This document shows, piece by piece, positions 4,984 through 20,160 of a stretch of DNA of 64,000 nucleotides. Positions within the stretch are counted from its first letter, which is position 1, and every line of letters begins with the position of its first letter. The stretch lies in NCBI GenBank assembly GCA_030429735.1, contig JAUIET010000001.1, forward strand, positions 620,001 through 684,000. Reading direction: 5' to 3'. This DNA comes from Gammaproteobacteria bacterium. Lineage in GTDB: Bacteria; Pseudomonadota; Gammaproteobacteria; Pseudomonadales; JAUIET01. Position numbers and translations under genes: made by a program. Under the pieces are notes generated by a model. The model did not search any database. It was not told the DNA's origin and saw nothing but the letters and a program-made list of their open reading frames with translations.

Positions 4984-5078
4984 TTCGTCGTGACAGCCCC
5001 AAACCATTGATATTTATAATATTATTTTTTTCTTTGCGGCCGCCTCGCTGCCCTGAACCACGCATTTATGACATAATT

Positions 5079-12521: not shown

Positions 12522-13475
12522 ATGAAATTCCTGGAACGCATTGCTAACAAACCGTCTTCCATTACGATTGACTATATTCCCAGGCAGTGCGCGTTTTGCC
12601 AGTCACCCAAAATTCTTCGCTCAGCTCCGTCCCATCTGGATGAGCGACTGCAAGTAAAGCTGCGCTTTTTTTGTCGCTCCTGCATGATCGACATGTTTGT
12701 TGTCGACACAAACATTGAGCGTGCCAAACAGCAAACACCAGCAGCACCCGGTACGGCAGCCGAAAACACGATTCTGCGCAATCGATTGAAGAACACCACC
12801 GAAAAGCTGGAGAAAACCAGGCGCGCCTTGCGTATTCAAAACGCAAGGCAGCAAAAAGACAGCGCGCGAATAGAAGTACTGGAGCAACTGGTGGCAGCCC
12901 AAGCCACTGACAGATCGCAACTGCTGGCACTGCAAGCCAAGTTGCTGGAGGCCGCGCAAGAGATCAAAGATAAAGAGTACGCTCTGGCCAAGGCCAATGC
13001 AGTAACAGATAGCATGCAAGCAAGACGAAGTGCCAGCAACCTTGTTAAGCTGCCCACACTGAACCCGAATCGGGTCAGCCACCTTCGCAGCGTTGATACC
13101 AATATGGAAATGGCGAAACGCATTGAACAGGGTTTGTCGCTGAGCAAGCTCGGCCACCTTGAGCCAAGCAGAACGCGGACAGCGCAACAAAATTACGCTC
13201 GTGCTGTGCGGTATATGAAAGGCAACGGGGTGCCGGTCAATCCGCACCAGGCCGTACGCTATTTTGAGCTGGCTGCGCGCGCCGGGCATATAAAAGCGCA
13301 GTTCAATATGGGTTTGTGTCGGGCACGCGGCACGGGTGGTAAGAAAAATCTGCAGGATAGCTATCGCTGGTTCGCTGCGGCCGCCGAGCAAGGGCACCAG
13401 AGGGCGTTTACCCTGTTGTCGGGCATCGCTGCGATGATATCAGCGGAAAAGAACACCGAACTTGGTGAGCGTTAG
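12522..13475 (+). CDS. Zinc-ribbon, coiled-coil and Sel1-repeat protein
   Basis: A 317-residue soluble protein with a clear three-part layout. An N-terminal CXXC pair (CAFC) and a second pair (CRSC) about 28 residues later form a probable zinc ribbon (about 20-60). A long helical coiled-coil region covers about 85-175. Two Sel1-like TPR repeats fill about 225-300 (ARAVRYMKGNGVPVNPHQA, then YRWFAAAAEQGH). The ATG at 12522 has GGAG about 7 bases upstream and is better than the TTG at 12507. Sel1 repeats bind proteins; the function is unknown. The stop is 8 bases from the end of the convergent kinase gene. Confidence 0.75.
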   Translation: MKFLERIANKPSSITIDYIPRQCAFCQSPKILRSAPSHLDERLQVKLRFFCRSCMIDMFVVDTNIERAKQQTPAAPGTAAENTILRNRLKNTTEKLEKTRRALRIQNARQQKDSARIEVLEQLVAAQATDRSQLLALQAKLLEAAQEIKDKEYALAKANAVTDSMQARRSASNLVKLPTLNPNRVSHLRSVDTNMEMAKRIEQGLSLSKLGHLEPSRTRTAQQNYARAVRYMKGNGVPVNPHQAVRYFELAARAGHIKAQFNMGLCRARGTGGKKNLQDSYRWFAAAAEQGHQRAFTLLSGIAAMISAEKNTELGER

Positions 13476-13483
13476 CGTTCGCT

Positions 13484-15031
13484 TTATGCGTAGCGCGGTA
13501 CGCTCAGAAAAAAACAACTCGCTATCAGCGGTGAACGCCTGACGCCAAATTGATATCCGTGTTGCTCTGCCAGTTCGAAACAGCTTGCCAGCCCTATGCC
13601 CTGACCTTTGGATGTATCGCCCTTCACGCCACGCTGGCGCAATTGCTCGAACTGGTCGGCGCTAATGCCATGGCCATGATCGAGCACATCAATGCGTACC
13701 CGTTTACCCTCACGCCTGCAGCCGATCAGTACTCTCTGTGAGCGTGAGTGTTCAATAGCGTTCGACACCATGTTTGATGTAATTCGCATAACCGCAACGG
13801 GGTTGACCAGGGCGTTCAAGGATGTAGGCACCGTAGTTAACCGGATGCCCTTACTGCTGGCCTCCTCTGCAAACATCTGCGTCATTGTTTGCAGCAGCAG
13901 GTTCAACGGCATGACTTCGTTTTGGGTATCTGATGACCGCGGTTCTTCCAGGGCGTTGTCCGGTTCGCTGTCATTGCTTGCAAAGCTGTCCGCCAGACGG
14001 TCGATATACGTTAAGGCTTGTTGGTACTCAATATCGTCCTCCAGATCAACCGCGTGTTTGAGCTTGTCCAGAGTAAGTTTCAAAGACACTAAAGGTTGGC
14101 GAATATCATGACTGGCAGCTGACAATTTCTCGCGCCGGCGAGCGGCTAATTCACGCATTCGTGCAAATTCGCGTTCAGCTTGCAGCTTTTCTTCACTGAT
14201 AAGCGCAGCGCGGCGCGCCGTCTGTAATTCACGCTGCAGGGCGTCTTCATGATCTTTTCGAATGCCAATAATATGCGCCATATAGGTGGCCACTAAGCTG
14301 AATGACAATAACGCATAGACCAGTCTTACCGCGGTATAACTCAACTCTGCATAAGAAAATGAATCCTTGCTCATTTGATACCAAGCCACAGCAATTATCA
14401 CCAGCACCGCCAATAAAAACAGTAAGCCGGTGATGCGCGAAAACCTGCCGGCATAGGCGAATTGGCGTTCACCGGAATGCTGTCCGGCCGGACGCCAGCT
14501 CATTGCCGATAGCAACTGCGACAAGACCATGGGTACAAACAAAATGTTGGCTATTACCGCAAGCAAAATAATGGGCACAAATGGAATCAGCGCGATGCAT
14601 ACAAAACTGAGTATGCCCATTACCTGAAAAATACCACTTAGTTTTTTCATTAGAACCGGTGGCTGGCCTTCTGAGGCGGCCACTGCAAGCAGCAATCCAT
14701 TGCCATTTAAAGCCAGTAAGGTTGTCAGCGGAATCCAGTTAGTGAGTTCCGGGTTGTCCGGCCAGAGCAGGCGAGAGGCCGTTCCATCTACGCAGGCTAC
14801 AAGAAACAGACCAAGCATAAATTGCAGCGTATACCACAGCCCAAAGCCATTGCGGGAAGCAACGTTGAACAAAGCGAACACCAACAGTAATACAATGGAA
14901 CTGCTGTAAAATATGGCGCTAATCGCCACACTCTGTAGTTGCTGTTCGTAGTAAGATATAGTTTGCGCTGCAGCGCTGGGTAAGCAAAATAAAACCAGAA
15001 TCAGCAGCGCGGTGATGGATTGCTTTTTCAT
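13484..15031 (-). CDS. Membrane sensor histidine kinase (7TM-type)
   Basis: A 515-residue histidine kinase. A signal peptide or first helix (1-22) is followed by about seven membrane segments between residues 35 and 255, like 7TMR-type sensor regions. A coiled linker (260-300) leads to the dimerisation box with phosphoacceptor H308 in SAASHDIRQPL. The ATPase domain has the N box NMVSNAIEHS, G1 DHGHGIS and G2 GQGIGLAS. The ATG at 15031 starts a good signal sequence; an upstream start would overlap the divergent regulator. It is divergent from the NarL-type regulator and very likely its partner. The ligand is unknown. Confidence 0.88.
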   Translation of the reverse strand: MKKQSITALLILVLFCLPSAAAQTISYYEQQLQSVAISAIFYSSSIVLLLVFALFNVASRNGFGLWYTLQFMLGLFLVACVDGTASRLLWPDNPELTNWIPLTTLLALNGNGLLLAVAASEGQPPVLMKKLSGIFQVMGILSFVCIALIPFVPIILLAVIANILFVPMVLSQLLSAMSWRPAGQHSGERQFAYAGRFSRITGLLFLLAVLVIIAVAWYQMSKDSFSYAELSYTAVRLVYALLSFSLVATYMAHIIGIRKDHEDALQRELQTARRAALISEEKLQAEREFARMRELAARRREKLSAASHDIRQPLVSLKLTLDKLKHAVDLEDDIEYQQALTYIDRLADSFASNDSEPDNALEEPRSSDTQNEVMPLNLLLQTMTQMFAEEASSKGIRLTTVPTSLNALVNPVAVMRITSNMVSNAIEHSRSQRVLIGCRREGKRVRIDVLDHGHGISADQFEQLRQRGVKGDTSKGQGIGLASCFELAEQHGYQFGVRRSPLIASCFFLSVPRYA

Positions 15032-15047
15032 AGCACAGGGGTTTCTT

Positions 15048-15725
15048 TTGGGTGCACACTCATTGATACACGGCGACAAAACCGTTGTTATTGCCGACGA
15101 TCACGCCATTATTCGCAACTCGCTGGATGAAGCCTTGAGCCGCCCTGGCCGCGTTGCGGTTAAAGGCTTGCATGTGTTGGCACATGCAAGCAATGGATTT
15201 GAAGCGGTAGCGGCTGTAAAGCAACACAAACCGGATTTGCTGTTGCTTGATGTGGCAATGCCGCTGGCTTCGGGTGCGCAGATTGTCAACGACATTCGCC
15301 GCTGGAGCGCCGACACTCACACGGTTGTGTTCACCGGGGTGGAAACGGCCGGCTTGCTGCTGGGCCTGATCGAAGACGGCGTGCGCGGTTTGTTTTCCAA
15401 GGCAGACCCTATTGAAGAGCTGTTGGACAAGCTGCCACTTATTCTTGACGGTTCCACCTACGTGTCGCCACGCTTTAGCAAAATTCTTGAAACACAAAGT
15501 GCGCTTGCTTCGCTCACGCCGCGCGAGCGGCAAACCTTGAATATGGTAGTGGCCGGGAAAAGCAACCGCGAAATCGCACAAGCGATTAATGTCAGTGCAA
15601 AAACCGTTGATAAGCACCGCACCAGTATGATGAACAAGCTTGGCGTGCATTCGGTGGTAGAGCTGATTGCCCTGGCCTTGCGCGAAGGCTTGCTTGATGA
15701 TGGTCACTCGGTTTCCCATAAATAA
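15048..15725 (+). CDS. NarL/FixJ-family response regulator
   Basis: A two-domain regulator of about 225 residues. The receiver has the acidic DD pair (VIADDHA), the phosphoacceptor aspartate in LLLLDVAMP, and the conserved Thr and Lys in FTGVE and FSKAD. The C-terminal LuxR-type helix-turn-helix begins LTPRERQTLNMVVAG and continues with SNREIA and VSAKTVDKHR. I chose a TTG at 15048 because AGGGG lies 7 bases upstream; an ATG at 15012 would overlap the divergent kinase gene. The palindrome 44 bases after its stop and a second copy at 18634 are plausible targets. Confidence 0.88.
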   Translation: MGAHSLIHGDKTVVIADDHAIIRNSLDEALSRPGRVAVKGLHVLAHASNGFEAVAAVKQHKPDLLLLDVAMPLASGAQIVNDIRRWSADTHTVVFTGVETAGLLLGLIEDGVRGLFSKADPIEELLDKLPLILDGSTYVSPRFSKILETQSALASLTPRERQTLNMVVAGKSNREIAQAINVSAKTVDKHRTSMMNKLGVHSVVELIALALREGLLDDGHSVSHK

Positions 15726-15768
15726 CGGCCTGCCATAACAATACTGGACCAGGACAGCCCTTTTTCAA

Positions 15769-15786
15769 ATGGGGTGCTTACCCCAT
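15769..15786. promoter_or_regulatory. Palindromic operator, copy 1
   Basis: ATGGGGT-GCTT-ACCCCAT is a perfect 7-bp inverted repeat with a 4-base spacer. It ends 63 bases before the start of the acidic-tail protein gene. The same arms and spacer length occur at 18634-18653 before another secreted-protein gene. The half-site TACCCCA resembles NarL-type heptamers, and a NarL-type regulator is encoded next door. Binding is inferred. Confidence 0.7.
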
Positions 15787-15849
15787 ACGTATTTATTCTC
15801 ATCAGTCCACACTGATTCCCAGATCGTTAGTCAACACCTGGAGAACACC

Positions 15850-16443
15850 ATGGATATTCTATTTCGAAAGACCGGCTACATTATTACATTTTTACTCGCC
15901 TTGATATGCAGCAGCTGGGCCTATGCACAGGCAGGAATATCGGGTATTCCGCAAATACCTGCGTTTCTGCCATTGTCTCATACGGTACCACCCACAGCAG
16001 AAGCTATGCCGCTGGATGGCGTGTGGAACATCACAACCATCAATAAGCGAATTCGCATAGATCGAGGTCGAGCGTATGCGGTTGACAGCTGGCTACACTT
16101 ATTTGTGCTGCAGGTTCAAGCCAATATGGTGGTGGTAAAAGACATTGTTAAAACGGGCGCAGGTGAATACAGTGGCAACGACTTACCGCTGTTGGGTGTT
16201 GCCACATTCAAGGCAAGCCCTTCCGGTAACCTCGATGTAACGGTACAAGCGCCATTAGGACCAATAAAATACGCACTGGCACCCGTTGATCTGGATGACC
16301 GTGACTGGTTTGAGCGGGACAGGGATGGAAACAGCAGAGTTGATGACGAAGAGGATGACGGCGACCAGGACGACAGCGAGTCAGAAGACGATTCAGAAGA
16401 AGACGATTCAGAGGAAGACGATAAAGAGTCCGAATACCCGTAG
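15850..16443 (+). CDS. Secreted protein with highly acidic C-terminal tail
   Basis: A 197-residue exported protein with a signal peptide ending near AYAQA (residue 27). The middle (about 50-150) looks like a small beta-rich domain with no family I recognise. The last 45 residues are almost all Asp, Glu and Ser, with the repeated unit DDSEE, and should bind divalent cations or basic surfaces. The ATG at 15850 has CTGGAG 6 bases upstream. The operator palindrome ends 63 bases upstream. The 3' end overlaps the beginning of the TonB-dependent receptor frame by up to 89 bases. This may be a co-operating surface binding protein (inference). Confidence 0.78.
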   Translation: MDILFRKTGYIITFLLALICSSWAYAQAGISGIPQIPAFLPLSHTVPPTAEAMPLDGVWNITTINKRIRIDRGRAYAVDSWLHLFVLQVQANMVVVKDIVKTGAGEYSGNDLPLLGVATFKASPSGNLDVTVQAPLGPIKYALAPVDLDDRDWFERDRDGNSRVDDEEDDGDQDDSESEDDSEEDDSEEDDKESEYP

Positions 16444-18622
16444 CCACCTGCATATTGCGGTAGCACTAGTGGCGGCACTAGTCGGCGTACACAGTGCCGT
16501 CAGTGAGGAGCTTACCACCGAAGAACTACTGGTTACGTCGCAGGCGTTTGCGTTGGAACAACTTGCACTTCCAGGCGCGCTCAGCAGCTTTGATGCAGCA
16601 CTGCTTTCACAGGCAAACATTTCTCACAGCAGCGAACTGGTAAAAGTTGCACCATCACTTACCGCGTTACAAAGTTTCAGCAATCGACAATCGGCCTTTC
16701 TGATCCGCGGCCTGGGTACACTGATTTTCAGCGCTGGTATAGAGCCTTCTGTGATTACCATGATCGATGGTGCGTCTGTAGGCAGCGCTGCACAAAGCAT
16801 GTTACCTGTACTTGATATAACGCGCGCAGAAATATGGCGCGGGCCACAAATTACCCGTTTTGCTCGCCATGCCGCCGCTGGCGTGATCAATTTAGTCAGC
16901 GAGCGCGCGAGCGAACAATGGCAAGGGCGCTTGCAATTACGCGCTAACAGGGTTGCGGATGGTGACAGCAATGCGTTTGAGCTAGGCGCTTACCTTGGTG
17001 GTCCAATATCAGAGAACCTGGGTGCGCGGTTTGCCATGACCAGCAGTGACACTGAAGGGTTTATCAAGAATGCATTTGATCAGCAGACGCTTAATGGCCA
17101 ACGGCAAACATCATTGATCGGCAAGTTCGATTGGGCCGCGTCGCAGTCTTTGTCTGTAGCGCTGGACCTGAGTCACAGCGATGCCCAGGCAAAATGCTGC
17201 GCGCCGGTTGTCAGCTCAATCAATAGCGCTCAGATAGGCGCTATCTTACTGCCGGTTGTGGCGGGTACTGCGAATAGAATGTCCAATACCAATACGGCCT
17301 TCATTGCCAATTCCCGCACCAGTGCGGCACGGCTTGCGATTGATAAATCGTTTGAAAGTGGTGCTCGCTTGCTATCGGTCACTGCGGCATCGACGTATTC
17401 CGAACGCGAGTCACAAGACTTTGATTTTTTGCCCATAGACCTCATCCCTGTCAGTATCGGCTATGACACACATGAACAGCTCTCGCAGGCGTTACGGTTT
17501 GAATCCTCGAAGGAAACGTCTTTTCACTACGAGCTTGGCGCTTATTACGAACAACAAGATCGTACCCGTGACTACGACAGAGCGTTTCTGAGCCTTGACC
17601 GCTCTTCTTTCAGAGCAGACATTACCCAGCGCAGTACGGCCGTGTTCGCCCATGCCACGTTTGCACTGTCAGACGACCTTAGCATTGGAGGCGGTGTGCG
17701 CCACACCAGTGAGCACATTGAGTTTCGCGCCAACCGGGATGCCTTTGTGCTGCAGGGTTTGACCGCGTTAAACAATGTAACTGATTCAACGGATGGAACG
17801 GTGCTGGACGGCGAGGCCTCAGTGCACTACAGACCAGACGCTGCGCATTCAATGTACGTGCGGTGGTCGCGTGGCCACAAGGCACCGGCGTACAATGTTA
17901 TTTTTGATCTTGCAGCTAATGCCCTTGAGCCTGTGCGCAAAGAGCGTGGCGAATCCTGGGAACTTTCGTATAAGCGGGTTTTTCCGCGTCAGCGTCTGAT
18001 GCTAGGCGCAACCGCGTTCCACACTCAGTACGAAGATTATCAGGCGCAGGTTCAGGAGCGTGACAGCGTGAGCCTGCTGTTGCTGAACTCAGGCGATATC
18101 CGCTCCTACGGTGTTGAGCTGGAAGCCGACTGGGTGTACCGCAGCTTACGCCTTCGAGCCGCTCTTGATTGGACAAGAGCGCATATTGGTGAGGTACAGG
18201 GTGTGCTGTGCGGCAATGGCGAAGTGCAACGCGGCGAATGCCCGAATGGTTTTCGCGAGCTAAAGGGCGAAGCGCTGCCTTTCGCACCAGATACGAAACT
18301 GAATGTGATGGCGAGTTATACCCTCGCTGCACAGCCCGCCGGATATGAACTGGCGCTGGACTCACTGTATCGATGGCAATCGTCGATGCAGACCGCCTTT
18401 AACAATGACCCTGCGCGCGAAGAGGGCGCGTTTGGCGTGTGGAATCTTGGCTTGACCATTGCCAGCGAGACAACGCAACTGCGAGTGTACGCTGAAAATA
18501 TCTTGAATAAGAATTTTGCATTAGCGCACTTCGACAACCCGGTTGATGCCGGGGGCTATCTATCTTTTTATGCGCGCGAATCCGCGCGCCGTTTTGGCAT
18601 TTCACTGCGCACTTCATTCTGA
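16355..18622 (+). CDS. TonB-dependent outer-membrane receptor
   Basis: A receptor of about 755 residues. A hydrophobic signal core (HIAVALVAALVGV) precedes a likely TonB box, EELLVTS. The plug domain (about 60-190) has FLIRGLGT and VLDITRAEIWRGPQ, and a 22-strand type barrel follows, ending in Phe as usual for outer-membrane proteins. The start is unclear. No ATG lies next to the signal core, and the nearest in-frame ones (16343 and 16355) fall inside the acidic-tail gene, giving a long basic n-region with KKTIQ repeats. CTG at 16448 or GTG at 16469 are alternatives. The substrate is unknown; the neighbours suggest a cation or metal complex. Confidence 0.83.
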   Translation: MTATRTTASQKTIQKKTIQRKTIKSPNTRSHLHIAVALVAALVGVHSAVSEELTTEELLVTSQAFALEQLALPGALSSFDAALLSQANISHSSELVKVAPSLTALQSFSNRQSAFLIRGLGTLIFSAGIEPSVITMIDGASVGSAAQSMLPVLDITRAEIWRGPQITRFARHAAAGVINLVSERASEQWQGRLQLRANRVADGDSNAFELGAYLGGPISENLGARFAMTSSDTEGFIKNAFDQQTLNGQRQTSLIGKFDWAASQSLSVALDLSHSDAQAKCCAPVVSSINSAQIGAILLPVVAGTANRMSNTNTAFIANSRTSAARLAIDKSFESGARLLSVTAASTYSERESQDFDFLPIDLIPVSIGYDTHEQLSQALRFESSKETSFHYELGAYYEQQDRTRDYDRAFLSLDRSSFRADITQRSTAVFAHATFALSDDLSIGGGVRHTSEHIEFRANRDAFVLQGLTALNNVTDSTDGTVLDGEASVHYRPDAAHSMYVRWSRGHKAPAYNVIFDLAANALEPVRKERGESWELSYKRVFPRQRLMLGATAFHTQYEDYQAQVQERDSVSLLLLNSGDIRSYGVELEADWVYRSLRLRAALDWTRAHIGEVQGVLCGNGEVQRGECPNGFRELKGEALPFAPDTKLNVMASYTLAAQPAGYELALDSLYRWQSSMQTAFNNDPAREEGAFGVWNLGLTIASETTQLRVYAENILNKNFALAHFDNPVDAGGYLSFYARESARRFGISLRTSF

Positions 18623-18633
18623 GCAACGCTCAA

Positions 18634-18653
18634 TATGGGGTTGATACCCCATA
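18634..18653. promoter_or_regulatory. Palindromic operator, copy 2
   Basis: TATGGGGT-TGAT-ACCCCATA is a perfect 8-bp inverted repeat with a 4-base spacer. It contains the same arms as the site at 15769-15786 and ends 61 bases before the crystallin-like gene, nearly the same distance as at the first site. The repeated sequence and position argue for shared control of both transcription units. Confidence 0.72.
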
Positions 18654-18714
18654 GTTGATCTCTCGCCAATCCATAAACTGAGAGTGTCACATCAATTGCA
18701 CCAGGAGAAAAGCA

Positions 18715-19422
18715 ATGACACTTACAGTATTACTAAACCGAACAAACCTATTCACATTCGCAAGCCTGCTCTTTATCCTATTTGCCGGTTTTAGCCAGTC
18801 GGTAAATGCGGGAAAACCCAAACACGGCTACCCCGCGTGCATGTATTTTTACGAAAACGCCGGTAAACAAAAGCTCAAGTCAGAACGCAGTTGTTTCACT
18901 CTGGGTGGCCATGGTCACAAAGCCATGGGCGGCGGCGACGCTAATTTCAAGAAAATTACCAAGATCGGGCGGGCATTCAAAAACCCCGTGCAATACGTCG
19001 GCGTGAAGAAGGGCTATACCGTTGAGATTCACCACAAAGACACTAAGGGTGCTATGAAAACAACCACATTGACAAGCAGTGGCCCGGTGGATATTCGTCG
19101 CAGTGCCATGAAGGGTGTGCGCATCTGGAAAACCAGTGATGGTCGGGGCGGCTACCCGGTGTGTTTGTACGAATCCAAAGCCAGCTTAAAGAAAAAGAAA
19201 ACCAAACACGCTTTGTGCCTGCCGTTTGGTGAATACAGAAACCTGGAAGCCTATGGCTGGGACAACAAAGCCAGGCATATTGATATCGGTAAAAAATACA
19301 AAGTGTATCTATACAAAGACACCAACTTCGACGGCAACAGCACCATTATGGAGAAAGACGGCCGAATTAAGATGGAAGGTAAAAACAAAAGCGTGTCATC
19401 CATTCGAATTGAGCGAAAATAA
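18715..19422 (+). CDS. Secreted beta/gamma-crystallin-like protein
   Basis: A 235-residue protein with a signal peptide ending near SQSVNA (residue 32) and an AGGAG site 8 bases before the ATG. The mature part is Lys-rich with four cysteines and appears to be two related domains, each opening with GYPAC or GYPVC. The C-terminal part (about 195-235) has KVYLYKDTNFDG and SVSSIRIE, spaced as in beta/gamma-crystallin Greek-key motifs, many of which bind calcium. An operator palindrome lies upstream and a strong hairpin follows. It is probably extracellular; its job is unknown. Confidence 0.75.
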   Translation: MTLTVLLNRTNLFTFASLLFILFAGFSQSVNAGKPKHGYPACMYFYENAGKQKLKSERSCFTLGGHGHKAMGGGDANFKKITKIGRAFKNPVQYVGVKKGYTVEIHHKDTKGAMKTTTLTSSGPVDIRRSAMKGVRIWKTSDGRGGYPVCLYESKASLKKKKTKHALCLPFGEYRNLEAYGWDNKARHIDIGKKYKVYLYKDTNFDGNSTIMEKDGRIKMEGKNKSVSSIRIERK

Positions 19423-19441
19423 CGCTGGCGTTGAGTCAAGC

Positions 19442-19470
19442 GGTCGGCTGAGTGCATTACTCTGCCGACC
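19442..19470 (+). terminator. Hairpin after the crystallin-like gene
   Basis: GGTCGGC (19442-19448) pairs with GCCGACC (19464-19470), and GAGT/ACTC inside extends the stem. It lies 20 bases after the crystallin-like stop. The following bases are pyrimidine-rich but lack a clear T-run, so a weak or assisted terminator is likely. Confidence 0.5.
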
Positions 19471-19530
19471 TTACCTTCCCCTCTATGTTTCATCTGCTAT
19501 CATTACGCTCCATTTTTTATTGGCGCGCTA

Positions 19531-20160
19531 ATGATTACTATCTACCACCTTGGTTTATCCCAGTCTGACCGTATTGTCTGGTTAATGGAGGAACTCGGCC
19601 TGCCCTATGACTTGCAGTGGTTTGATCGCGGTGACGATTTTTTAGCCCAAGACGATTACCACGCGCTGCACCCCACCGCTACCTCACCCACTATTCGAGA
19701 CGGTGACCTGGTGCTGACCGAGTCAAACGCAATTGTTGAATACATCAGCCATCGGCACGGCGAGGGAAAGCTGAGCGTCGCACCTGAAGACGACAAATAC
19801 GCCGAATACATGTACTGGATGCAGCTAAATCACAATTTGCAGAGCGCTTTTTTCGCAAAGATGGCAGCTGGAGATCAAGCAGATGAGAACAGCTCGATGA
19901 TCAAAACGATGAATTCTCGCCAACGTCGTTACTACAGTCACTTGAACAATCAGCTGGCTAGCAATGCGTTTATCATTGGGGACTCATTAACCTGTGCCGA
20001 TATTATGGCGATGTTTCCAATCACGATGTTATCTGGTATGACAGGCATCGACCTTGCGGATTACCCGAACATACAGGCGTACGTTGAGCGAGTATCAGCA
20101 AGACCGGCTTACCAAAAAGCCATGGCCATTGCCGGCCCATCGGCGCAACGGCCTGAATAG
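19531..20160 (+). CDS. Glutathione S-transferase family protein
   Basis: A 209-residue cytosolic GST. The N-terminal thioredoxin-like domain (about 1-80) has SQSDRIVWLMEELG, where S10 or S12 may be the catalytic residue. It also has the cis-proline segment ATSPTIRDGD and the glutathione-binding ESNAIVEYI. The C-terminal helical domain carries the N-capping motif LTCADIMAMF. The stop is 2 bases before the next ATG, so it is co-transcribed with the histidine phosphatase gene. The substrate is unknown. Confidence 0.9.
   Translation: MITIYHLGLSQSDRIVWLMEELGLPYDLQWFDRGDDFLAQDDYHALHPTATSPTIRDGDLVLTESNAIVEYISHRHGEGKLSVAPEDDKYAEYMYWMQLNHNLQSAFFAKMAAGDQADENSSMIKTMNSRQRRYYSHLNNQLASNAFIIGDSLTCADIMAMFPITMLSGMTGIDLADYPNIQAYVERVSARPAYQKAMAIAGPSAQRPE

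Follow-up and report, generated by a model that had tools for sequence, protein, structure and literature searches.

A palindromic candidate operator accompanies a NarL/FixJ-type response regulator and a small set of exported-protein genes

We propose that the palindrome ATGGGGT-N4-ACCCCAT very likely serves as the operator of the NarL/FixJ-type response regulator encoded at 15048-15725 of the window (the whole 64-kb stretch of DNA analyzed here), which would activate genes for a few exported or outer membrane proteins; we infer both binding and activation from sequence comparisons. The original prediction had named this adjacent regulator as a candidate binder, and the assignment is supported: the palindrome accompanies relatives of the regulator, appears to change together with the recognition helix and lies at a fixed distance from a −10-like element. 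Because the same palindrome accompanies the regulator in distantly related bacteria, it is best read as the regulator's own site.

Materials and methods

The window belongs to a genome (G000) of 5,029,329 bases that is 97% complete. Motif counts in this genome were compared with those of a control, the pattern read backwards, with up to two mismatches allowed. Relatives of the regulator were retrieved from species genomes (130 found, the best 80 being retained), from an order sample (4 of 194 genomes at E ≤ 1e-30, own genome included) and from a class sample (5 of 369 genomes at E ≤ 1e-40, own genome included), with longer stretches taken for four new class-sample genomes and for G052. The loci were split at about 40% identity into 14 near loci (L021, L024-L032, L134-L137) and 73 far loci (L022, L023, L033-L103).

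For promoter analysis, 22 sites drawn from 27 entries were oriented to their downstream gene. Five entries were omitted: L135 and L136, L122 b+, for which no gene was clear, the L025 site on its serpin side, and L028 b+, which nearly duplicates L026. The L028 site on the minus side belongs to neither set. Hexamers were scored with base frequencies that we take to be those of sigma-70 −10 elements. Export was judged by eye for all proteins in this analysis.

Results

Both palindrome copies are exact and carry the 4-base spacer originally described: ATGGGGT-GCTT-ACCCCAT at 15769-15786, the proposed operator of a SEC1/TonB-receptor unit, and ATGGGGT-TGAT-ACCCCAT at 18635-18652, the proposed operator of SEC2, neither being assigned to a strand. 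The regulator stop codon ends at 15725, which confirms the claimed gap of 43 bases to copy 1. Of the two claimed start-codon distances, that of copy 1 holds at 63 bases (ATG at 15850), while that of copy 2 is 62 bases (ATG at 18715) instead of 61.

With arms of 7 bases and 0-10 bases between them, 88 perfect inverted repeats occur in the window, and among these ATGGGGT-N4-ACCCCAT is the sole arm-and-spacer combination found twice. Any repeated arm-and-spacer pair was seen in 3 of 200 dinucleotide-preserving shuffles of the window, and the exact motif in none of the 200. A whole-genome scan, as had been suggested, yielded three exact sites, 63, 62 and 77 bases before start codons, no further site at one mismatch and a further 16 at two. 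As the control gave 10 matches, the two-mismatch sites were set aside as background, and only the exact sites stand out in this genome. Frequent occurrence inside genes had been named as a point that would count against the prediction; the exact motif shows no such pattern in this genome, its three copies each lying upstream of genes. In the class sample of 369 genomes, the exact palindrome is confined to the genome of the window and absent from the other 368. Shuffles, genome count and class sample thus agree with the earlier judgement that the pair is hard to attribute to chance.

A phylum sample of 398 genomes yielded the shorter core TGGGGT-N4-ACCCCA in 34 of them (four copies in G586, three in the own genome, two in each of two genomes and one in each of thirty), that is, at 41 sites against 37 for the control, so that on its own it is uninformative and reflects general background. 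The four G586 copies (contigs C42 and C171) have an identical spacer, two of them lie at contig ends, and they look like part of a repeated element. No close relative of the regulator was found in 29 of the new shorter-core loci of this sample (2-3 kb each), where the best match reached 28% over 102 residues by BLASTP (L166); L161 has receiver-domain matches.

Since both window copies lie just past a stop codon, and copy 1 fits a terminator-like pattern, the palindromes might be read as RNA hairpins terminating transcription after the regulator and TonB-receptor genes. We regard this as very improbable: copy 2 is not among the terminator-like matches, of which the region holds 3 against a shuffle mean of 3.6, the motif sits between divergent genes in L025 and L026, variants with unpaired positions such as TTGGGGG-N4-ACCCCAT exist, and the fixed −10-like spacing described below is unexpected of a terminator. 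A search of 13000-20000 at Rfam gathering scores returned no matches.

The product of 15048-15725 (plus strand; start TTG at 15048 or TTG at 15063), the proposed palindrome binder, belongs to the NarL/FixJ-type regulators, with a receiver domain (PF00072, 3.6e-16) followed by a GerE/LuxR helix-turn-helix (PF00196, 2.3e-20), both above cut-off. Divergently oriented from it, at 13484-15031 on the minus strand, is a gene for a sensor histidine kinase, presumed to be its partner, with HATPase above and HisKA and 7TMR-DISM below the Pfam cut-off. A kinase homologue is present in 10 of 11 relative loci compared, the exception being L061. Between the kinase and regulator genes of the window no palindrome site was found with up to three mismatches. 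The possibility that the regulator is an orthologue of the nitrate regulator NarL was rejected: it scores 95.6 bits against an NCBIfam NarL equivalog cut-off of 250, and the proposed sites have a 7-4-7 arrangement with outward ACCCCAT, against 7-2-7 inward heptamers.

Downstream of copy 1, SEC1 (15850-16443, plus strand) encodes an exported-looking protein with a predicted small beta-barrel core and an acidic tail. An ATG within copy 1 is in frame with SEC1; the start is nevertheless probably at 15850, where a GGAG precedes the ATG and a signal-like segment begins. The frame of a TonB-dependent receptor with plug and barrel (16424-18622, plus strand; start codon not fixed) overlaps the end of SEC1, and the receptor gene probably shares the SEC1 transcript. 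SEC2 (18715-19422, plus strand), likewise exported-looking, has sub-threshold matches only, to beta/gamma-crystallins; it was found in 1 of 14 genomes searched, the own genome, and its single-sequence model is of low confidence (mean pLDDT 48). The SEC1 model, built from seven sequences, has a mean pLDDT of 75 and a pTM of 0.59 (the five models range from 46 to 75), with residues 51-140 mostly above 90. The best Foldseek E-value was 0.025, and the best VIA-align hit a designed barrel (Z 9.9), with lipocalin, avidin and Cap15 barrels at 8-9. The core is accordingly predicted to be a small barrel, and the model is read no further than that. A SEC1 match is present in 8 of the 14 genomes searched, own included, and in all eight, one SEC1 copy is accompanied by a core site at about 80-210 bases; no core site is listed near a second, partial match in G196 (2248029).

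The third exact palindrome (G000:C2:262419-262436), unlinked to the regulator gene, precedes by 77 bases the ATG of a gene for a 616-residue lipoprotein (G000:C2:262514), in which a lipase-like GHSKG motif was recognized by eye. In G194, a counterpart with 70% identity is encoded 84 bases after the same palindrome, and outside the palindrome the upstream regions of the two genomes look unlike by eye. Counting partial matches, the lipoprotein gene occurs in 3 of 14 regulator-related genomes; it is full length in G000 and G194 only, the remaining partial matches covering the N-terminal part only. In the class sample it was found in 1 of 369 genomes, the own genome. All three exact sites of the genome therefore lie upstream of genes for exported-looking proteins, which supports the predicted regulon, albeit a small one.

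SEC1, SEC2, the lipoprotein and the scanned exported proteins of relatives gave no Pfam or NCBIfam family above cut-off. Where the window has the TonB receptor, five aligned loci (L025, L026, L027, L029 and L031) carry CGGLNQK-repeat proteins after SEC1, and serpin-like genes were noted by eye near sites in L025 and G052. Such exported binding, uptake and inhibitor proteins suggest that the sensed cue lies at the surface or envelope.

Near-locus regulators are about 42-62% identical to the window regulator, the nearest being L024 from G194 (62%), and they include loci labelled gamma- and alphaproteobacterial. Among the loci from the best 80 of 130 relatives and the samples, the core TGGGG-N6-CCCCA is present in 11 of 14 near loci against 1 of 73 far loci. 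Full-motif matches at 0, 1, 2 and 3 mismatches numbered 5, 2, 7 and 4 in the first ten near loci (108 kb) and 0, 0, 3 and 13 in the far loci (735 kb). In relatives, the sites immediately follow the regulator gene, precede SEC1 homologues or occupy the space separating two divergent genes for exported proteins. Eleven regulator-carrying genomes together contain 57 short-core sites against 26 for the whole-genome control. Nineteen of these are at regulator loci, with at least one in each genome, and the other 38 exceed the control modestly. Seven of the 38 were inspected: two are the lipoprotein sites, a pair in G196 precedes a gene for an exported-looking protein, and three (G000:C20, G194:C116 and G196:C1:1824321) were dismissed as background, being inside long open frames. 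The remaining off-locus sites are probably mostly background.

Several loci show individual features. The G196 pair (G196:C1:2778870-2778941; L122:3371-3442) consists of two GGGG palindromes spaced by 54 bases, as are those of the pair at the regulator locus of that genome; the protein encoded downstream has 192 residues and looks exported. At L030:6698-6900, the gene after the palindrome is apparently a short remnant with an end similar to the exported-protein gene of L032, while the palindrome is kept. In L137 a 672-residue gene whose start looks PAS-like by eye is separated from the regulator gene by a palindrome (5013-5030), and may add another signalling protein to the targets at that locus. 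The contig of L025 (NZ_VNWP01000041.1) bears the label Synechococcus; its regulator, kinase, SEC1 and three palindromes resemble proteobacterial loci, and it is probably a contaminant.

In near regulators with a GGGG palindrome, the recognition helix reads KT[VA][DE][KR]HR. L135 and L136, which are close relatives of each other, have KTVDNHR, with N replacing K/R, and directly after their regulator gene TTAGGGT-N4-ACCCTAT, i.e. AGGG instead of GGGG; this variant is absent, with up to two mismatches, from the 73 far and the 12 other near loci. The gene beside it is largely N-masked in both genomes. Among the far regulators, L061 is the only one of 73 with [KR]HR and the only one whose locus has the core, 44 bases after the end of the regulator gene. 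L023, the far row nearest to the clade, has NHR and neither palindrome type in its 3.6-kb locus. A Fisher test on 12 of 13 against 0 of 72 loci, with the window and the two AGGG loci left out and kinship ignored, gave a p of about 1e-13; as the near loci are related by descent, these locus counts are not independent. In a tree of 88 regulators, which contains several long branches, the near rows group together (13 rows at 99/86; 97/77 with L135 and L136), L023 is next to join them and L061 falls outside. The L061 regulator is deltaproteobacterial and 32% identical to that of the window, and the same kind of palindrome (L061:6699-6716) precedes a permease-like gene (by eye), so that this operator type may extend to other regulons. 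A phmmer alignment pairs the K/R position with the second V of the NarL segment TVKVHV, presumably Val189. According to PMC3246441, helix alpha-9 and the loop preceding it set specificity in the NarL-type family, and a DegU model in PMC9263151 places the alpha-9 residues K194, K197 and N198 at DNA bases.

These distributions also bear on whether a different dimeric regulator, encoded elsewhere, binds the palindrome and adjoins the two-component pair by shared function only. Such a reading would accommodate the site unlinked to the regulator gene, as well as L134, where a near regulator with [KR]HR is accompanied by neither palindrome type in 10.5 kb. The core, however, follows the regulator clade (it is absent from 72 of the 73 far loci), the AGGG palindrome occurs where the recognition helix differs, and G001, a genome of the same genus, lacks both the regulator (E ≤ 1e-30) and any exact site. 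We therefore consider a separate binder unlikely and retain the adjacent regulator as the probable one.

Each window copy is followed, after 21 bases, by a −10-like hexamer on the plus strand: a weak CACACT at 15808-15813 and TAAACT at 18674-18679 (SEC2). Further examples are TAGGAT (lipoprotein), TAGTTT (SEC1 of L025) and TAAACT (SEC1 of G052). Over the 22 oriented sites, the mean −10 score peaks 21-23 bases past the palindrome (1.09 at 22, the best value elsewhere being −0.67), a maximum that was never reached when the 90-base flanks were shuffled by base composition 1000 times; 5 of the 22 sites score below zero at these offsets. With the hexamer start at −12, the palindrome centre would lie at −42.5 to −44.5, i.e. 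near −43, an activator position. Such a geometry would suit a class II-type site, which overlaps −35 and is centred at about −42; the spacing to the −10-like hexamers is fixed, and the centre is computed from it. The promoter-distal first base of the palindrome is A in 15 and T in 7 sites, and its promoter-proximal last base is T at all sites but one (21 of 22). Many of the sites were collected by core match, which makes the invariance of the core partly circular and no proof by itself. In L025, regulator, kinase and SEC1 each have an upstream site, which suggests autoregulation there.

Overlap with the −35 position, where repressors also bind, could be expected as well if the site were real for the adjacent regulator but the latter were a repressor covering the −35 region and released on signal. 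At the three sites of the own genome, however, no TTGACA-like −35 element was seen by eye, which suits an activator-dependent promoter, and NarL 7-2-7 sites at −40 to −49 (napF) and −38 to −47 (yeaR) activate, according to PMC4549865. Repression is in our view rather improbable, if somewhat less so than binding by another regulator, and activation remains the preferred reading.

Discussion

In the proposed mechanism, a regulator dimer would read one ACCCCAT half-site on each side through its C-terminal GerE domains, at a palindrome whose centre lies some 43 bases upstream of the transcription start, in the place of a would-be −35 element. Phosphorylated, presumably by the kinase, it would activate SEC1 together with the TonB receptor, as well as SEC2 and, at G000:C2:262514, the unlinked lipoprotein gene. 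Here we infer phosphorylation, the kinase partnership and activation rather than repression. More tentatively, and with the odds somewhat against it, kinase, regulator and operator may have spread as one module from one bacterial class to another and come to control sets of exported proteins that differ, among them a small beta-barrel, a TonB receptor, a serpin-like protein, Cys-rich CGGLNQK repeats and a lipase-like lipoprotein. The cue would be a so far undescribed one at the cell surface, and a single recognition-helix position (K/R versus N, at Val189 of NarL) would set GGGG versus AGGG.

From sequence alone, an uncharacterized two-component system would thereby be given an operator, a set of targets and a promoter geometry, and its regulon can be proposed in other carrier genomes. 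Several exported proteins without known function would be tied into one response, and the recognition-helix and operator changes that occur together in nature offer part of a specificity code for NarL-type regulators that can be tested directly.

The proposed system is a known, ordinary kind of switch, whose operator sequence and gene set appear new, as we did not find them described. Spellings of the palindrome consensus were not found in a literature search, most subscription journals lying outside its reach; the short string TACCCCAT is common in the literature, none of the matches listed containing the consensus strings, and searching on this system returned nothing beyond an Fnr/Dnr paper.

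Three regulators of the same family invite comparison. NarL of E. coli binds 7-2-7 sites, for example the engineered 5'-TACCCCTAAAGGGGTA-3' in PMC4549865. The window regulator belongs to the same protein class (phmmer 6e-15 to 1A04), its half-site holds an ACCCC core as does TACCCCTAAAGGGGTA, and NarL activating sites lie near −43 in the same paper. Unlike those of NarL, the half-sites face outward, with GGGG on the left and CCCC on the right, and a 4-base instead of a 2-base spacer lies between them; the recognition helix reads TVDKHRTS in the window regulator against TVKVHVKH in NarL. For DosR/DevR, likewise a NarL-family regulator, the string TTSGGGACTWWAGTCCCSAA occurs in PMC2275270. By our count, its left-half GGG lies at an equal distance from the centre, whereas the DosR/DevR half-site is GGGACT and the regulon an actinobacterial hypoxia regulon. 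The string TTGCGGNNNNCCGCAA, which occurs in PMC3793909, we take to be a ComA site. ComA, again of the NarL family, resembles the present system in having a palindrome with a 4-base spacer and differs from it in the sequence of the half-site.
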